Virus record (IMG/VR): IMGVR_UViG_3300042691_012902
Span: 1-39,146 of that record
Strand: one strand, 5' to 3'
DNA from: a virus
Length of the DNA stretch: 39,146 bases
Of this stretch, positions 4,801 to 39,146 are shown piece by piece (positions within the stretch are counted from its first letter, which is position 1; each line of letters opens with the position of its first letter). The translations under genes and the position numbers were made by a program. The notes below the pieces were generated by a model, which was not told the origin of the DNA, searched no databases, and worked only from the letters and a program-made list of their open reading frames with translations.

Positions 4801-7800
4801 TCTGTCTGTCTTTCTTTGCTAAATTTAGCTCTTCTGGCAAGCTATTAAATTTAGCCATTTGTTTTTCAGTCATTTTAAATGGTGGTAAATTGTCTATTAC
4901 TTGTAGTCTCTCAAGGTAATCAGCTTTATCTGCATCTGTTTTAAGAGCGTCATACTTTTTCTGTTGGCTTGCTGTTAACTTAAGTGGTTTTGTTTCTGCA
5001 ATTGGTTGATTTTTTATTTTTTCAGCCATCGTTCTTAAGGCTTTTGATGTTTCGTTTTCAAGTTTAACCAATTCTTCTTCAGTAATATCAGGCTTCGTAA
5101 TTTTTTTATCAGTATAAACAATTTCGCCTTGTTTATTTCGTGTTTTGACTTTTACAGTATACTCTCCTTGCAAAAACTTTTTGTACTCTTCACGAGCTTG
5201 TTTTAATAATTTTTCTTTTTCTGCAACATCATCTATTAATTTTTGATTAATACTTTTTGGTGTTTCATCTACAGCGGCTACAGGAAGTTTTGGAGTAGGT
5301 GCTGTTACAGGAGCTTTGTCATATCTTTTTCTTAAACTGTTAATTTGTTTAATCAAAGATTCAGCATATTCTTTTTGTTTCTGACTCATATTTATTGCAG
5401 TATTTACAACATTTTTTCCATCTTGTTTAACAATAAGTTTATTATTTATCAGTCCCTGAATTTGGTTTTCAACTTTATCAATTTCTTTTTGAAGCATCGC
5501 TTTAGTTTTAACAACCGCTGGTCTTCTTCCAGTGCCAGTAGCTTTTGTTAATAAAGCAATTTCTTGAGCATACTTTGCTCTAGGAGTAATTTGAAACGCA
5601 AGAAATTCTTCAAAAGTTTTAATAAATTTGTTTGACGGTCGTCCTTGATAAGGTTTAAAAATAATTTTAATTGTATTACCTGTTTCTTTTGCAAAATGCT
5701 CCTCCACAGCTTTTGTTTCAGTTGGATTATATGGAATACGTGGTGCTTGAGTCGGTGCTGTGACTGGCGGTGTCTCCGCTTGTACTTTTGGCGGATTAGC
5801 TCGAAGCTGAGCTTCTTTTGCTTGCCAAGACTTTAACAAGTTTTGAGCTTTAGTCAAGCCTTCCTCAACTTTTGGTCTAGCATCTGGTGATTGCCGCTTT
5901 CCATATACTTTGTCGTAAGTAACTTTTTGTGGTTGCGGTTGCGACTTAGCTTCAGGTTTAGCTTTAAATTCAGGTTTAGCTACACGGAAAGTTCTTTTTG
6001 GTTTTTGAACAGGTGTTGGAGCAGGTTGTATCATTTGACGAATTTGTTCAGGAATCGATTCTGCTTTTCTTGCTTCTTCTAATTTATTTAGCTCATCGAT
6101 TTTGCTAGTAAGAGCATCATCGGCTTGCTTTAATGCTTCTTCAGCCGCTTTAATCGCATCGTTACTTTTTTCCAAATTTACAGAAGCTGGGTCAAACCCT
6201 TTCCATGCCTTCTTAGCTTCGTCAAACTTAGCTTGCAAAGTGGGCAACTCTACTCGATAACCTGTTAAATTTGCTTTAGCTTTTGATAAATATGTACGAG
6301 TTGTTTTTATCGTTCTATTTAATTTATTGATTGTTTCATCTGAAGCATTAAGGGCTTTCATTTCATCTGTATATTTTTTAATAAGTTGTTTCCGCAGAGT
6401 TTCCCGTTCGTCAAGCTTTCCTTGTCTTGCTAAATCTGCTAATTTACTATCCTCGATATCAGTGAATCTAGTTATAACTCCACCGTTTAAACTTTTATCC
6501 GATACAATAGCTACTCGAAAACCTTGAGCAAACAGCTTTTCAGCCGCAAGTTCTTCTAAATAATTAGTTCTTTGTTTTGGAGTCAATAACTTTTTATATT
6601 TTTCTAATTGATATGGCAATAAACTTTCAACTTCCACAGGTTTAACTACTGGCGTAATAACTTCTTTTGTATCCGCGACTTCTCGGGCTTTTGCTAACTG
6701 TGCACTTGCGTCAGTTATTTTTTTATCATATTCTTCAATTTTTTTACTTGCTTCTGTTATTTTTTTATTTATATCATCGACTTTTGCTTTAGCTTCATCT
6801 TTTATTTGACGAAGACTATCTTTGGTTTCTCTAATTGCATTTGTATTTTGATCTTTAAGATTTTTTCTTGCAGTGCTTAAAGCATTAGACGCTTCTTTCT
6901 TTGCAGTTTGTAATGCCTTGATATCATCTGTAGCTTTATTTATCATGAAAGCTACACTAGAACGATTTTTCATAGACTCCGCTGAAACTCTAGAAACACT
7001 AGACTGAACTTTTTGTACAGTTTGACCTGTGTACTTAGTAACACGCCTTCTAGCTTCATCAATTTGCTTTTGAGTTAATTGTGCACCATTTTCCACCGCA
7101 TTAATAAAGTTAGCAATAACACTTCTATCATTTTTAACATCAGGAATACTTCCTTCAGTAACTAATCGCTTAGCAATGTTGTAAAGATTTTCATTGCTTT
7201 CACCAATGTATCTATCAACATCGGCTTTTGTGACCAAATCTGATATATTTGCACCTTTATTAACATCAAAAACAATACCAGCTTGTTTGCTTGGTACAAG
7301 AACACCATCATTCTTTAACTGGTTGATAATACTGCGAGCAGTTTCTCTTGGTACTTTAAACTGAGACTGGATTAACCGTGTAAGGTTCTCTGCATCGCCT
7401 TTTGCTACTTGTGTTAGTTCAGACTTAACATAATCAGCAACTTCTCGGTATGTCTTTGCTTGTTGCTCAGCAGGTTGTCCACCACGTGCAACAGTGATCA
7501 TTTCTTCTATTGTAGCAGGTGCCGCGGCTTTAACTGGTTTTTTAACGCCTTTAACACCAGCGGCTTCTTGAAATTTATCAATGGCTTTTTGTACATCTTT
7601 TGTAACTTCTGGAAACTGTTTCATAACTTTTTCTGTTACTTTAGCGTTAGGAAGATTAGCAATACGGATTCGGTCAAGTTCTTTTAAAAAGTAGTCTGAT
7701 TCAGCACGAGTTAATGTAGCAGGGTCAGCTTTGCCAAACTTCTTTTGAAAAAATGCTTTAATTTCTTCTGTATTTGTCATGCCTTTTTGAACTAACTTGC

Positions 7801-27186: not shown

Positions 27187-27492
27187 ATGAGTAAGAAAGT
27201 ATTAGATTTAAAAGCTTTAGAAACTGAGGTTATTGTAAGTGAGTTAGTAAGTCGTGGTTATGTAGTAAATGCACCTAAAGTTCCTTACAAATCAGTAAAG
27301 TTGGAGTACAAAGCAAGTTCAGTACCAGCAGTAAAAGAGCACTTAAATGCTGGTAAGAAAGTGAGAATTAATTTTGGCAAGTTCAAAAATACGTGGGTTC
27401 AAGAGACTTTCTCTACAGTAGCAGAATTAGACGCTTGGGTAGAGAATAACCCACAACGAAAGAAGTATGGAAAGAGCTTCTCCCTTCTATAG
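27187..27492 (+). CDS. first early gene, unknown protein (101 aa)
   Basis: Basic 101-residue protein, AGGAG 10 bases before the ATG. Predicted alpha/beta: LDLKALETEVIVSELVSRGY, then a Lys-rich middle (KVRINFGKFKNTWVQETF) and a helical end. It is the promoter-proximal gene of the rightward block, a place often used for host take-over proteins, but there is no recognisable motif. Its stop codon is in the loop side of a hairpin (27479-27497) that precedes the first hammerhead ribozyme. Confidence 0.75.
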   Translation: MSKKVLDLKALETEVIVSELVSRGYVVNAPKVPYKSVKLEYKASSVPAVKEHLNAGKKVRINFGKFKNTWVQETFSTVAELDAWVENNPQRKKYGKSFSLL

Positions 27493-27497: not shown

Positions 27498-27505
27498 GGT
27501 TCTTA

Positions 27506-27565
27506 GAGCGAAACAGTGGTGTATTAGTGCCACTGTCCAGTGATAAAGTCACTGCTGATGAGCTC
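27506..27565 (+). ncRNA. type II hammerhead ribozyme, copy 1
   Basis: Open stem II GAGC (27506-27509) / GCTC (27562-27565); core GAAA (27510-27513); stem III CAGTGG (27514-27519) / CCACTG (27530-27535); cleavage triplet G-T-C ending at 27537; stem I CAGTGA / TCACTG with TAAAG loop (27538-27554); core CTGATGA (27555-27561). All invariant core positions are present, including the G-C pair next to the core in stem II. Predicted cut is between 27537 and 27538. It lies between a stop codon and the ribosome site of the next gene. Confidence 0.92.
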
Positions 27566-27594
27566 ATTCGTCAGAACTAAGGAGGTTAACTGGA

Positions 27595-27810
27595 ATGGAT
27601 GGATTATTAATGCACTGGCATGAGAAAGAAACTATCTTGGAATACCCCAATACCAAGGCAGTAGTAGTGCAGGGAGATGTGTTCCATGAATTTACATCCC
27701 TTCGTGCCGCTGAAGATATTGCTACTGTATTTGGTGGTGATCTCTACTTAACTACACCAGTAGAAGATAATGATGGAGTCTACTGGTACAAATTGGAGAG
27801 CTACTGGTGA
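27595..27810 (+). CDS. small early protein (71 aa), unknown
   Basis: 71-residue acidic protein with a perfect AAGGAGG 9 bases before the ATG, 29 bases after hammerhead 1. Predicted beta/alpha with many aromatics (MHWHEKET, YWYKLESYW). No family recognised. If hammerhead 1 cuts, this mRNA begins with a 5'-OH hairpin (stem I). Its stop lies in a hairpin loop followed by hammerhead 2, so the gene sits between two ribozymes. Confidence 0.72.
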   Translation: MDGLLMHWHEKETILEYPNTKAVVVQGDVFHEFTSLRAAEDIATVFGGDLYLTTPVEDNDGVYWYKLESYW

Positions 27811-27819
27811 TTCCAGTAG
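27801..27819 (+). other. hairpin spanning the stop codon before hammerhead 2
   Basis: Stem CTACTGG (27801-27807) / CCAGTAG (27813-27819), 7 bp, with the TGA stop in the 5-base loop region. Same arrangement as before hammerhead 1. Followed by TTCTTC, too weak to call a terminator. Confidence 0.5.
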
Positions 27820-27825
27820 TTCTTC

Positions 27826-27885
27826 AGGTCGAAACAGCACTGATATTGGTGCTGTCTAGTGATTAAGTCACTACTGATGAGACCT
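27826..27885 (+). ncRNA. type II hammerhead ribozyme, copy 2
   Basis: Open stem II AGGTC (27826-27830) / GACCT (27881-27885); GAAA (27831-27834); stem III CAGCAC (27835-27840) / GTGCTG (27849-27854); cleavage triplet G-T-C ending at 27856; stem I TAGTGA / TCACTA with TTAAG loop (27857-27873); CTGATGA (27874-27880). Stems II and III differ in sequence from copy 1 with paired changes. Predicted cut is between 27856 and 27857. No gene follows for about 530 bases. Confidence 0.93.
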
Positions 27886-28070
27886 TGTTCATCTGGCTCT
27901 TTGATAACTAAATACGATGTGTCTGACAAGCACAGTGCAGTTTCAAGCTACTGCATTAACCTGATAACAACAAGCTAGGTAGATAATGCTACCCATACAA
28001 GTACATAGGATGTGTACAATTACTTACCACATGCAATATGGTATATTCCAATAACCCTGTAAACACCATT

Positions 28071-28105
28071 TTGTATACAAAAAGTACGTATACAAGTTTT
28101 TTTTT
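28071..28105 (+). terminator. rho-independent terminator ending the first early transcript
   Basis: Stem TTGTATAC (28071-28078) / GTATACAA (28088-28095), 9-base loop, then G and nine T (28097-28105). The stem is AT-rich, but the long T-run is convincing. A promoter follows at 28218. Confidence 0.65.
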
Positions 28106-28171
28106 AGGTGTTAAAAGTTTTAGAGGGAAATTAAAAAATGGATTTTACCGTATACAAATATATATAATATT

Positions 28172-28269
28172 ATAAGAACGCTGTATACATGCATTCTTAT
28201 CACCAAAACAGTACTTTTTGAGTTTTTTTTTCAGAGGGTATATAAGAGTGGCTATACAGCGTCTCTTAT
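28172..28269. repeat. pair of similar inverted repeats, 70 bases apart
   Basis: Unit 1 (28172-28200): ATAAGAACGC - TGTATACAT - GCATTCTTAT, one mismatch. Unit 2 (28242-28269): ATAAGAG-TG-GC - TATACA - GC-GT-CTCTTAT. Both have ATAAGA/TCTTAT outer arms, a GC/GC inner pair and a TATACA loop. Unit 2 overlaps the -10 box at 28241-28246. Start-to-start distance 70 bases is about seven helical turns. Confidence 0.6.
28218..28246 (+). promoter_or_regulatory. second early promoter
   Basis: -35 TTGAGT (28218-28223), 17-base spacer beginning with a T-run, -10 TATAAG (28241-28246; 5 of 6). It follows a terminator and precedes a leader of about 160 bases before the gene at 28415. Confidence 0.55.
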
Positions 28270-28277
28270 TACAAGTT

Positions 28278-28361
28278 TTGTATGACAAGTTCTGTCGTAC
28301 AAGTCAGCAAATAATCGTAAAATTTGTTAATTTGTACGACAGCATTTGTATAACATGCTGT
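28278..28361 (+). promoter_or_regulatory. leader with mutually exclusive hairpins
   Basis: Segment 1 TTGTATGACA (28278-28287) pairs with segment 2 TGTCGTACAA (28293-28302; one G-U). Segment 2 extended by one base (28292-28302) is also a perfect 11-base complement of segment 3 TTGTACGACAG (28332-28342). The end of segment 3 with following bases, ACAGCAT (28339-28345), pairs with ATGCTGT (28355-28361). So 1:2 and 3:4 compete with 2:3. The same repeats could be protein sites in DNA. Confidence 0.5.
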
Positions 28362-28414
28362 TAACTTGTAAGACGTTACTCATAAGAGAACGCATAGTTG
28401 AAAGGAGTTTTTGG

Positions 28415-28636
28415 ATGAAAACATTAGTAGAATACAAAGTTAGGGAGTATTACCCTAACGGCGAGTTGTATACCACAATTCGCACCGCTCGTTTTACATC
28501 CTTGCACAAAGCTGAGAAGTTTGCGGCTGACTTGCAAGAACCTGTTGTTGGTGAGTCAACTATCAGCAATGTCCGTGTTATTGCACCAAATACTGACATC
28601 GTTTGGTGTCACACTTGCCAACAGTTTCACGCTTAA
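28415..28636 (+). CDS. small early protein with C-terminal Cys/His motif (73 aa)
   Basis: 73 residues from ATG 28415, chosen because AAAGGAG lies 8 bases upstream; an earlier ATG in frame at 28346 lies in the structured leader without a ribosome site. Predicted beta-alpha (VEYKVREYYPNGELYTT, then SLHKAEKFAADLQ) and a C-terminal WCHTCQQFHA, which could bind a metal with C, C and H. No family recognised. Confidence 0.7.
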   Translation: MKTLVEYKVREYYPNGELYTTIRTARFTSLHKAEKFAADLQEPVVGESTISNVRVIAPNTDIVWCHTCQQFHA

Positions 28637-28649
28637 TATTACAAGCCGA

Positions 28650-28669
28650 GGGTGGCGGCTATACCACCC
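28650..28669 (+). other. intercistronic hairpin
   Basis: GGGTGG / CCACCC stem with an 8-base loop; an alternative GCCG / CGGC stem (28645-28648 with 28656-28659) competes. There is no T-run and no hammerhead core. It lies between the genes at 28415 and 28700. Confidence 0.45.
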
Positions 28670-28699
28670 AACAAACTTACTTAATGGGAGGAATTTTGT

Positions 28700-29110
28700 A
28701 TGACAAATTTAGTAACAACATTTATTAACGGTGATTTCTTGAATCTCTTGGATTACAACGAGGTTAAAATTATTACTGGTGACAAGGCAGACGGTAAAGC
28801 ATTATTCCCACGTCAGTATGTAGAACTGTTCCAACGTATCGGAGACACTAATAACTACGGTAGTAGCATGTGGGTTGATACTTTGTATCTGAATGCACAG
28901 GGTTATGAGCTTGGTGAGTCACAAGACTTACAGTATAACAATGAGTATTACAACACGATTCAACATGCTAAAGAACTAAGAGACATCATAGACAACAGCA
29001 ACAAAGAAATTGGCTGGAAAGGTACCTACTGGACTTACTATGACGGTAAGAGTATTAGTATAGACCTTACAATGCCAGTCGAATTAATGGATTCAACAAC
29101 ACTCGACTAA
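28700..29110 (+). CDS. early protein of unknown function (136 aa)
   Basis: 136 residues, acidic, rich in Asn and Tyr, with GGGAGG 8 bases before the ATG. Patches such as GDFLNLLDYNEVKIITGD and YYNTIQHAKELRDIIDNS suggest an alpha/beta fold. No family recognised. It is followed after 3 bases by hammerhead 3. Confidence 0.75.
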   Translation: MTNLVTTFINGDFLNLLDYNEVKIITGDKADGKALFPRQYVELFQRIGDTNNYGSSMWVDTLYLNAQGYELGESQDLQYNNEYYNTIQHAKELRDIIDNSNKEIGWKGTYWTYYDGKSISIDLTMPVELMDSTTLD

Positions 29111-29113
29111 CAA

Positions 29114-29170
29114 GGTCGAAACGGTGGCTAATAACCGCCGTTCTAGTGTAAAGCACTAGCTGATGAGACC
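29114..29170 (+). ncRNA. type II hammerhead ribozyme, copy 3
   Basis: Open stem II GGTC (29114-29117) / GACC (29167-29170); GAAA (29118-29121); stem III CGGTGG (29122-29127) / CCGCCG (29135-29140), one G-U pair; cleavage triplet G-T-T ending at 29142; stem I CTAGTG / CACTAG with TAAAG loop (29143-29159); CTGATGA (29160-29166). Here the cleavage-site base is T instead of C, still allowed by the NUH rule. Predicted cut is between 29142 and 29143. GAGGAGG for the next gene begins 16 bases later. Confidence 0.92.
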
Positions 29171-29200
29171 ACTCACAGAACATTCGAGGAGGAATTTGGT

Positions 29201-29422
29201 ATGAAAACAGTTCAAGGCAAGGGTTGGGATTTAGAGTACAAGACAGGGTATGCGTATGGTTATACACTATATGCAACCAAGTCGGCAGGTCAGTTGATGG
29301 TTGAACGTGATATTATCATGTTCGAGCTTATCAACAACACTAACGGTGACACTTGGTATATAGGTGCACTTGACGGTGTAGAGTATGCGTTGACATTAAA
29401 GCTACTCAAGGAGGTGAATTAA
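29201..29422 (+). CDS. early protein of unknown function (73 aa)
   Basis: 73 residues with a perfect GAGGAGG 8 bases before the ATG, directly after hammerhead 3. Beta-rich and aromatic (WDLEYKTGYAYGYTLYATK, DTWYIGALDGVEYALTLKLL). If the ribozyme cuts, its mRNA starts with the stem I hairpin about 60 bases before the ATG. It is the first of a tight run of coupled genes. No family recognised. Confidence 0.72.
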   Translation: MKTVQGKGWDLEYKTGYAYGYTLYATKSAGQLMVERDIIMFELINNTNGDTWYIGALDGVEYALTLKLLKEVN

Positions 29423-38022: not shown

Positions 38023-39000
38023 ATGAATATCCGAGGTTCAGAAATCCAAGACTTTCTTAGGTGTCGAAAACGTTGGGATTACCGATGGCAAGAAAGACTT
38101 ATCTCAAAGAAGAAGAACGACAAGCTATTCTTCGGAGAACTATTTCATCTATACCTAGAGAAGTATTACAAGACGAAAAACCACGACACTGCACAACAGT
38201 ATATGCTTCAAACACTCGATATGTATATGGATGAAGACTGGGAAGAACTACAGGACAAACTAATGGAAATTACAAATCATTACTATGAAACATATAAAAC
38301 CGATCTGTTTACAGTCCTAGGTGTCGAAGTACAGTTTAGCATCCCACTCACAGCTACAAAGAACTTCACAGGAACAATTGATTTAATCTATAGAGATACG
38401 GAAGGTCGGCTGTGGTTCGCTGACCACAAGACCACAACAAGCATTGAGAAGTATGAGAAGAACGCAATCCTAGACAGACAAATCAATCGTTATTGGTGGG
38501 CGATACAGCAGTTAGCAAAAGGTAATGGCATAATCATGGGTGATAAAAATATTTTATTAGACAGTCCATATGGTTTTATGTACAATATTATATACAAGGA
38601 TTATCCAGTACCGCCAAAGATTCTCAAGAGTGGTGGATTATCCAAGGACAAGTCACAGAAGACAACGTACCAAATGTACAAAAAAGCCATTACAGACTTG
38701 CAACTAAACGAAGCTGACTACGCAGATATACTTGAGCATCTTTCCAGCTACCCGTTTAAATTCTTTAGTCGTGTTGAAGTGTTCCGCAATCAGCAAGAAA
38801 TAGACTGTACAATGGAAGAAATAGGTGCTATTGTACAGGACATGGATAATTGCAGAACATACCGAAACATAACTACAGACTGCCAATGGGACTGTCAATA
38901 TAAAGACTTGTGTTTGGCTGAAATCGATGGGTCAGATGCACAGTGGCTAAGAGATGAACTATATGAAAAAGGAGAAAAAGAAGATGACACTGACGATTAA
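38023..39000 (+). CDS. RecB/Cas4-like PD-(D/E)XK nuclease with Fe-S cluster
   Basis: 325 residues from ATG 38023 (GAGGAG 7 bases upstream; the ATG at 38008 overlaps the previous stop but precedes this site). Nuclease core: GELFHLYLE near 38-46, Asp120 (GTIDLIY), and DHK at 134-136 (FADHKTTTS). Four Cys fit an iron-sulphur cluster: Cys14 (LRCRKRW) and Cys287/291/297 (DCQWDCQYKDLC), as in Cas4 and AddB. It forms a likely recombination pair with the following ATPase. Confidence 0.9.
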   Translation: MNIRGSEIQDFLRCRKRWDYRWQERLISKKKNDKLFFGELFHLYLEKYYKTKNHDTAQQYMLQTLDMYMDEDWEELQDKLMEITNHYYETYKTDLFTVLGVEVQFSIPLTATKNFTGTIDLIYRDTEGRLWFADHKTTTSIEKYEKNAILDRQINRYWWAIQQLAKGNGIIMGDKNILLDSPYGFMYNIIYKDYPVPPKILKSGGLSKDKSQKTTYQMYKKAITDLQLNEADYADILEHLSSYPFKFFSRVEVFRNQQEIDCTMEEIGAIVQDMDNCRTYRNITTDCQWDCQYKDLCLAEIDGSDAQWLRDELYEKGEKEDDTDD

Positions 39001-39146
39001 GAAGCCGAGCAGTAAAGCAGAAGGATTCCATGGGATTCTTTACGGAGAACCCGGGACAGGCAAGACGTCTACAGCAGACGACCCAGAGCTTAAGACTTTG
39101 TTACTAGATTTAGAGGGGGGTTCTTCCGTACTTTCGGAAGCAACCA
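38984..39146 (+). CDS. Sak4/RecA-like ATPase, N-terminal part, cut by window edge
   Basis: Starts at ATG 38984 with AAAGGAG upstream, overlapping the nuclease gene by 17 bases. The visible 54 residues contain Walker A YGEPGTGKTS followed by LLLDLEGG, the pattern of AAA/RecA-type phage ATPases that act with RecB-like nucleases and single-strand annealing or SSB proteins. The rest lies beyond the window; the polymerase at the left edge is probably a few kilobases further on. Confidence 0.85.
   Translation, partial: MTLTIKKPSSKAEGFHGILYGEPGTGKTSTADDPELKTLLLDLEGGSSVLSEAT

Follow-up and report, generated by a model that had tools for sequence, protein, structure and literature searches.

Hammerhead ribozymes leave a 2',3'-cyclic phosphate and a 5'-OH on their cleavage products, and type II is the only one of the three permutations in which the upstream product ends in hairpin III and the downstream product opens with hairpin I. 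In phage T7, the early polycistronic mRNA is cut at gene boundaries by host RNase III, which gives separate messages with structured ends.

Clustered hammerheads, including type II, were described around small genes in prophages and were proposed to divide long phage transcripts into mRNAs of gene length; cleavage was shown in vitro for three tandem arrays and in E. coli for one (Perreault et al. 2011, PMC3088659). The type II consensus of that work carries a pseudoknot between loop I and the 3' tail, which is found in the majority but is not universal, and the many hammerheads lacking it may use other contacts (PMC3088659). A 2017 review left the role of prokaryotic hammerheads open and described type II contacts as usually Watson-Crick (PMC6155905). 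Natural self-cleavage within a bacterial mRNA is also found in the glmS riboswitch, which, unlike the phage hammerheads analysed here, is single, ligand-dependent, destabilising, located in a 5' leader and of a different fold; its 5'-OH cleavage product in B. subtilis is decayed by RNase J1 (PMC3328962).

Clustered prophage hammerheads, a proposed processing role and demonstrated cleavage have therefore been known since 2011 (PMC3088659), and the role itself has been open since then. As far as the open-access literature shows, a pseudoknot-less variant and its near-invisibility to Rfam are new, as are a stop-codon rule, the array sizes, a cassette-joint behaviour and cultured carriers; no later paper on phage hammerhead arrays was found in that literature, outside which most subscription journals lie. 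Here, we analysed a 39,146-nt stretch of virus DNA (IMG/VR record IMGVR_UViG_3300042691_012902, positions 1 to 39,146; hereafter the window), for which an earlier note had reported three type II hammerheads in a phage early region, and we define both the variant and a precise rule for its placement.

Results

Three type II hammerheads in the window

When a type II descriptor written for this analysis was run over the whole window, exactly three hammerheads were found (Table 1), and none were found in 100 first-order Markov resamplings of the whole window. A looser core pattern, in which pairing was not required, matched exactly the same three against 0.03 expected. The covariance model R1, trained on 30 hammerheads from other loci with no window sequence among them, gave the three copies 54.8-58.7 bits, and the next-best match in the window had 13.3 bits, with no further degenerate type II copy above that score. 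Type I and type III hammerheads were not found in the window by the descriptor.

In all three copies, stems I and III are closed by loops and stem II is open, as in type II architecture, and the core (CUGANGA / GAAA / UH at the three-way junction) is complete. The coordinates, loop I, 6-bp stem I, stem III pairs and cut positions given in the earlier note all agreed with direct reading and with the descriptor, and with every architectural feature of the class present, the three copies are confirmed, at the level of sequence and pairing, as real type II hammerheads. The predicted cleavage-site nucleotide is C in copies 1 and 2 and U in copy 3; GUU is permitted at a hammerhead cleavage site, although less usual. 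Each copy does follow a same-strand stop codon, as had been claimed, with 13, 16 (15 with the fifth pair) and 3 nt between the stop and stem II of copies 1, 2 and 3.

Table 1 Hammerheads and neighbouring features of the window
Feature	Position	Strand	Description
Gene 1	27187..27492	+	101 aa; stop 13 nt before hammerhead 1; no PHROG at E<=0.01
H-A dinucleotides just 5' of 4-bp stem II	27504..27505; 27825-27826; 29112-29113	+	candidate tertiary-contact residue with loop I
Hammerhead 1, type II	27506..27565	+	GAGC-GAAA-CAGTGG...CCACTG-TC^CAGTGA(TAAAG)TCACTG-CTGATGA-GCTC; predicted cut after 27537 (GUC); descriptor; R1 57.1 bits, E 2e-13
Gene 2	27595..27810	+	71 aa; cassette between hammerheads 1 and 2; AGGAGG at 27580-27585
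Hammerhead 2, type II	27826..27885	+	AGGTC-GAAA-CAGCAC...GTGCTG-TC^TAGTGA(TTAAG)TCACTA-CTGATGA-GACCT; predicted cut after 27856 (GUC); descriptor; R1 58.7 bits, E 8e-14
Gene 4	28700..29110	+	136 aa; stop 3 nt before hammerhead 3
Hammerhead 3, type II	29114..29170	+	GGTC-GAAA-CGGTGG...CCGCCG-TT^CTAGTG(TAAAG)CACTAG-CTGATGA-GACC; predicted cut after 29142 (GUU); descriptor; R1 54.8 bits, E 1e-12
Gene 5	29201..29422	+	73 aa; first after hammerhead 3; GAGGAGG ribosome-binding site upstream; 98.6% identical in L035

The Rfam type II search proposed in the earlier note gave a different picture. No match was obtained in the window at the gathering thresholds; with RF02276 (Hammerhead_II), copy 1 reached 22.5 bits against a gathering score of 37, copies 2 and 3 were not listed at E<=5, and a partial RAGATH-1 match overlapped copy 2 in the E-value scan. 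By the letter of that note, such low scores speak against its identification, but we attribute them to the model, because RF02276, which has the same permutation and catalytic core, does not fit the pseudoknot-less variant. In ten loci with about 44 hammerheads by the descriptor, RF02276 recovered only one.

Relatives and the shared variant

A scan with a pattern of the core and loop I, in which pairing was not demanded, matched 60 virus contigs, and 59 of these 60 matches form all three helices by the descriptor (L029 weakly), with the remaining one at 61 bits by R1. The same pattern matched 16 contigs in the whole GTDB genome collection, with a true match in 8 genomes. A second, independent scan gave at least 120 matches, and the family is larger than those listed. 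Among the matches listed, the relatives amount to at least 262 distinct hammerheads in at least about 160 loci, nearly all of which are phage contigs.

The helices vary in the manner of paired RNA. Among 30 ungapped relatives, both sides were changed in 13 of the 16 pairs, the covariation score was 0.878 compared with 0.189 when shuffled and at most 0.094 when slid, and 153 double-change cells were compensating compared with 40 in shuffles. The 30 rows were chosen by pairing, and the unbiased pairing test is the 59 of 60 pattern matches above. The core was intact in 37 of 39 array copies found by the model without a strict core requirement and broken in the other two. Together, the covarying stems and the kept core point to selection on both the RNA fold and catalysis.

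The variant differs from the Rfam type II model, and from the type II consensus of Perreault et al. (2011): loop I has 5 nt, stem II has 4 bp and is preceded by a nearly invariant A, and a pseudoknot is not detectable. First, loop I has the consensus U-N-A-N-G in the second-scan copies among the matches listed, for which the scan pattern fixed the first U and last G and left the middle A free. Second, among 108 distinct relatives, stem II mostly ends at 4 bp through an opposing A (79), an A stands at -1 before stem II in 105, a position outside the scan pattern, and G is avoided at the base preceding this A. Third, the pseudoknot was rejected, as loop I and the 3' tail show no covariation and their mean best complementarity over the 108 relatives was 2.157 compared with 2.145 when shuffled. 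We infer that loop I instead touches stem II at its A-flanked end. The median pair probability of the 4-bp stem II is 0.07 in native context, where folding that ignores tertiary contacts seldom predicts it. Type I and type III hammerheads also occur beside type II copies, in L025, L036, L043, L045, L048, L059 and L014.

Placement after stop codons and arrays

For placement, same-strand ORFs of at least 40 aa were taken, and a same-strand stop was found within -6 to +12 nt of stem II in 222 of the 262 listed relatives compared with about 21 expected. The first set contributed 93 of 108, compared with 8.2 at random positions (at most 19 in 500 trials) and 12 on the opposite strand, and the independent set 129 of 154 among the matches listed, compared with 13.3 at random positions. 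In a frequent arrangement, stem II opens with the G of a TAG stop. A Shine-Dalgarno (SD)/ribosome-binding site and start codon follow within 250 nt in 108 of 118, at a median of 26 nt. A hammerhead lying 0-6 nt past a stop leaves no space for its own promoter and must therefore be transcribed from upstream.

The window has three copies in 1.7 kb, each after a same-strand stop. This had been called unusual in the earlier note, which does not hold, as arrays of 4-12 copies are common at related loci; its view that the placement points to transcript processing is supported. The Perreault clusters likewise have several copies near small genes in the same arrangement and with the same proposed processing role, while the arrays here reach 11-12 copies and the stop-codon placement is quantified. 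Often there is one copy per gene boundary. For example, L101 carries 11 hammerheads over 5.3 kb, at most gene boundaries, with a twelfth match whose core is broken, and its array stops before a helicase that shares its PHROG family with the helicase of the window. In L103, each of nine consecutive gene boundaries holds a hammerhead, one per gene; G058 has 12 matches, and G007 and G060 have 8 each.

Cultured phages

Through the helicase match of the array locus L135, we reached the isolated Streptomyces phage Dryad. By R1, Dryad and Yara have 7 copies each and phiRKBJ001, also an isolated Streptomyces phage, has 6; Dryad grows on S. viridochromogenes and Yara on S. toxytricini. In the Dryad stretch, none of the copies is annotated and none was found by Rfam, and at least one, at record positions 55447-55514, has a broken core (CCGAAGA). 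Cuts in Dryad are predicted within the gaps at 53608-53665, 54033-54111, 57768-57827 and 58603-58676 of the record. No hammerhead was found in Paenibacillus phage API480, the nearest isolate by helicase, or in helicase relatives from Gordonia, Nocardia and Rhodococcus. With 6-7 unannotated copies each, the three carriers make the processing hypothesis testable in infected cells. In Dryad (L219, 5021-5099), gene 81 is annotated to start at 5084, within a predicted hammerhead; more probably it starts downstream, at the ATG that follows GGAGGA.

Discussion

Proposed role in cutting early transcripts

The hammerheads probably act as intercistronic self-cleaving ribozymes that punctuate an early polycistronic transcript into gene-length messages. 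Several small early genes would be transcribed as one RNA by RNA polymerase, and each hammerhead, folding downstream of a stop codon and ahead of the next ribosome-binding site, would cut after its NUH. As stems I and III would be closed hairpins and only the 4-bp stem II would join the halves, the upstream product would end about 30-50 nt past the stop in hairpin III plus one unpaired nucleotide with a 2',3'-cyclic phosphate, and the downstream product would start hairpin I from its very first nucleotide, which carries the 5'-OH, with the ribosome-binding site after it. Each gene would thus have its own message, whose newly formed end is blocked by structure. Exonucleases should be slowed by this, and adjoining genes would no longer be tied to one another in stability and translation. 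Hammerhead 2, with no gene directly after it, would instead shorten the gene 1-gene 2 message at its 3' end. By analogy, messages would be separated and protected as in T7, where the cutter is a host protein (RNase III), whereas here the RNA itself is expected to cut. If this is true, some phages use ribozymes instead of protein-based mRNA processing at many early gene boundaries.

Several results favour this processing role: the intact copies in the window, the stop-codon placement, the arrays, the kept cores and the identity of the ribozymes in the close relative L035 described below, together with the cleavage reported for earlier arrays (PMC3088659). The predicted folds also contribute, as both products of window copies 1 and 3 carry the terminal hairpins that type II cutting should leave. 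Counting against it are the low pair probability of stem II, the predicted 5' product of copy 2, which refolds so that hairpin I is absent from the minimum-energy structure of the fragment folded, the sporadic occurrence among terminase relatives described below, and the decay of the glmS 5'-OH product considered next.

The main rival to processing is that cutting serves to destabilise or regulate, the 5'-OH or exposed end sending a product to rapid decay and thereby lowering or timing early expression in a glmS-like manner. The glmS 5'-OH is a target of RNase J1 and not a shield (PMC3328962), so cutting could destabilise the downstream message. We consider this unlikely, since the same element stands between many unrelated genes of one operon and type II cutting leaves a hairpin on each newly made end, which a plain 5'-OH end lacks; cleavage of the window copies would probably stabilise the messages rather than hasten their decay, and would probably be of value to the fitness of the phage. 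A switch could be added to such regulation, as in each window copy the tail (27566-27585, 27886-27900 and 29171-29180) can form 6-7 bp with the CUGAUGA strand of the core, and the tails of a subset of relatives can do so as well, making it possible that the tail refolds onto the core strand after cleavage. The complementarity is weak and partial, however, with TCAG in the tails of 17 of 115 relatives compared with 5.2 expected.

Cassette boundaries

Comparison with L035 shows a further side of these elements. The late genes of L035 are 94% identical to those of the window and all three ribozymes are letter-identical (175/175 bases), while gene 2, which encodes a diverged homologue, is 47% identical, the 16 nt preceding hammerhead 2 are 37% identical, and gene 3, diverged or replaced, is 40% identical. 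Identity is lost in gene 2 and regained exactly at hammerhead 2. Near-identical hammerheads also occur with differing flanks, sharing only the upstream side (L002/L027) or only the downstream side (L020/L027 and L025/L036), and pairs 92-98% alike within one genome have largely unrelated flanks. From the resumption of identity at hammerhead 2 and the unrelated flanks of near-identical copies, the elements also mark cassette boundaries, and the hammerheads behave as junctions for gene exchange.

It could be argued from the same observations that the elements are recombination joints, conserved at boundaries mainly for cassette exchange, with RNA cleavage secondary or absent. Recombination needs identical sequence, however, and the stems diverge with compensating changes while the core is kept, which makes this reading very unlikely. 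Least likely of all is that the hammerheads are decayed or neutral passengers copied around phage genomes with no current role, as their sporadic occurrence among terminase relatives and the broken cores in Dryad and in two array copies might suggest, given the strict stop-codon placement, the mostly intact cores and the full identity of the ribozymes with those of L035 beside strongly diverged sequence.

Returning to transcript processing, we also put forward a broader proposal, plausible if somewhat short of probable: that the UNANG-loop variant with an A-flanked 4-bp stem II constitutes a widespread phage system, which would act at many early-operon boundaries to give hairpin-capped single-gene messages without host RNases and would serve as a cassette-exchange joint as well. 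When ten terminase relatives of the window were searched as whole records, several of them fragments, a hammerhead was detected in only one, so the element is not essential to the lineage.

Other features of the window

L061 and L062 are about 90% identical to the window in the late genes up to about 26864 and have no nucleotide similarity beyond it, and this position is, judged by these comparisons, a mosaic breakpoint at the late/early border. No phage DNA relatives of the early half of the window were found by megablast, and the small early genes gave no convincing family match in PHROG. The ends of the window lie inside a RecA/Sak4-like ATPase ORF (38954-39146) and a DNA polymerase ORF (1-965). 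Circular joining of the ends is in frame but was rejected, since the joined ORF would apparently be chimeric, starting as a RecA-like ATPase and ending as a DNA polymerase; part of the replication module is probably missing from the record.

A strong long hairpin (28281-28352; fold of 28240-28420, -56.3 kcal/mol, z -5.4) lies in non-coding sequence before the gene at 28415. Weak microRNA-like Rfam matches in the window fall on it and were rejected. The non-coding region around the hairpin is 97% conserved with L035, and the hairpin is possibly an RNase III site, a terminator or a replication element.
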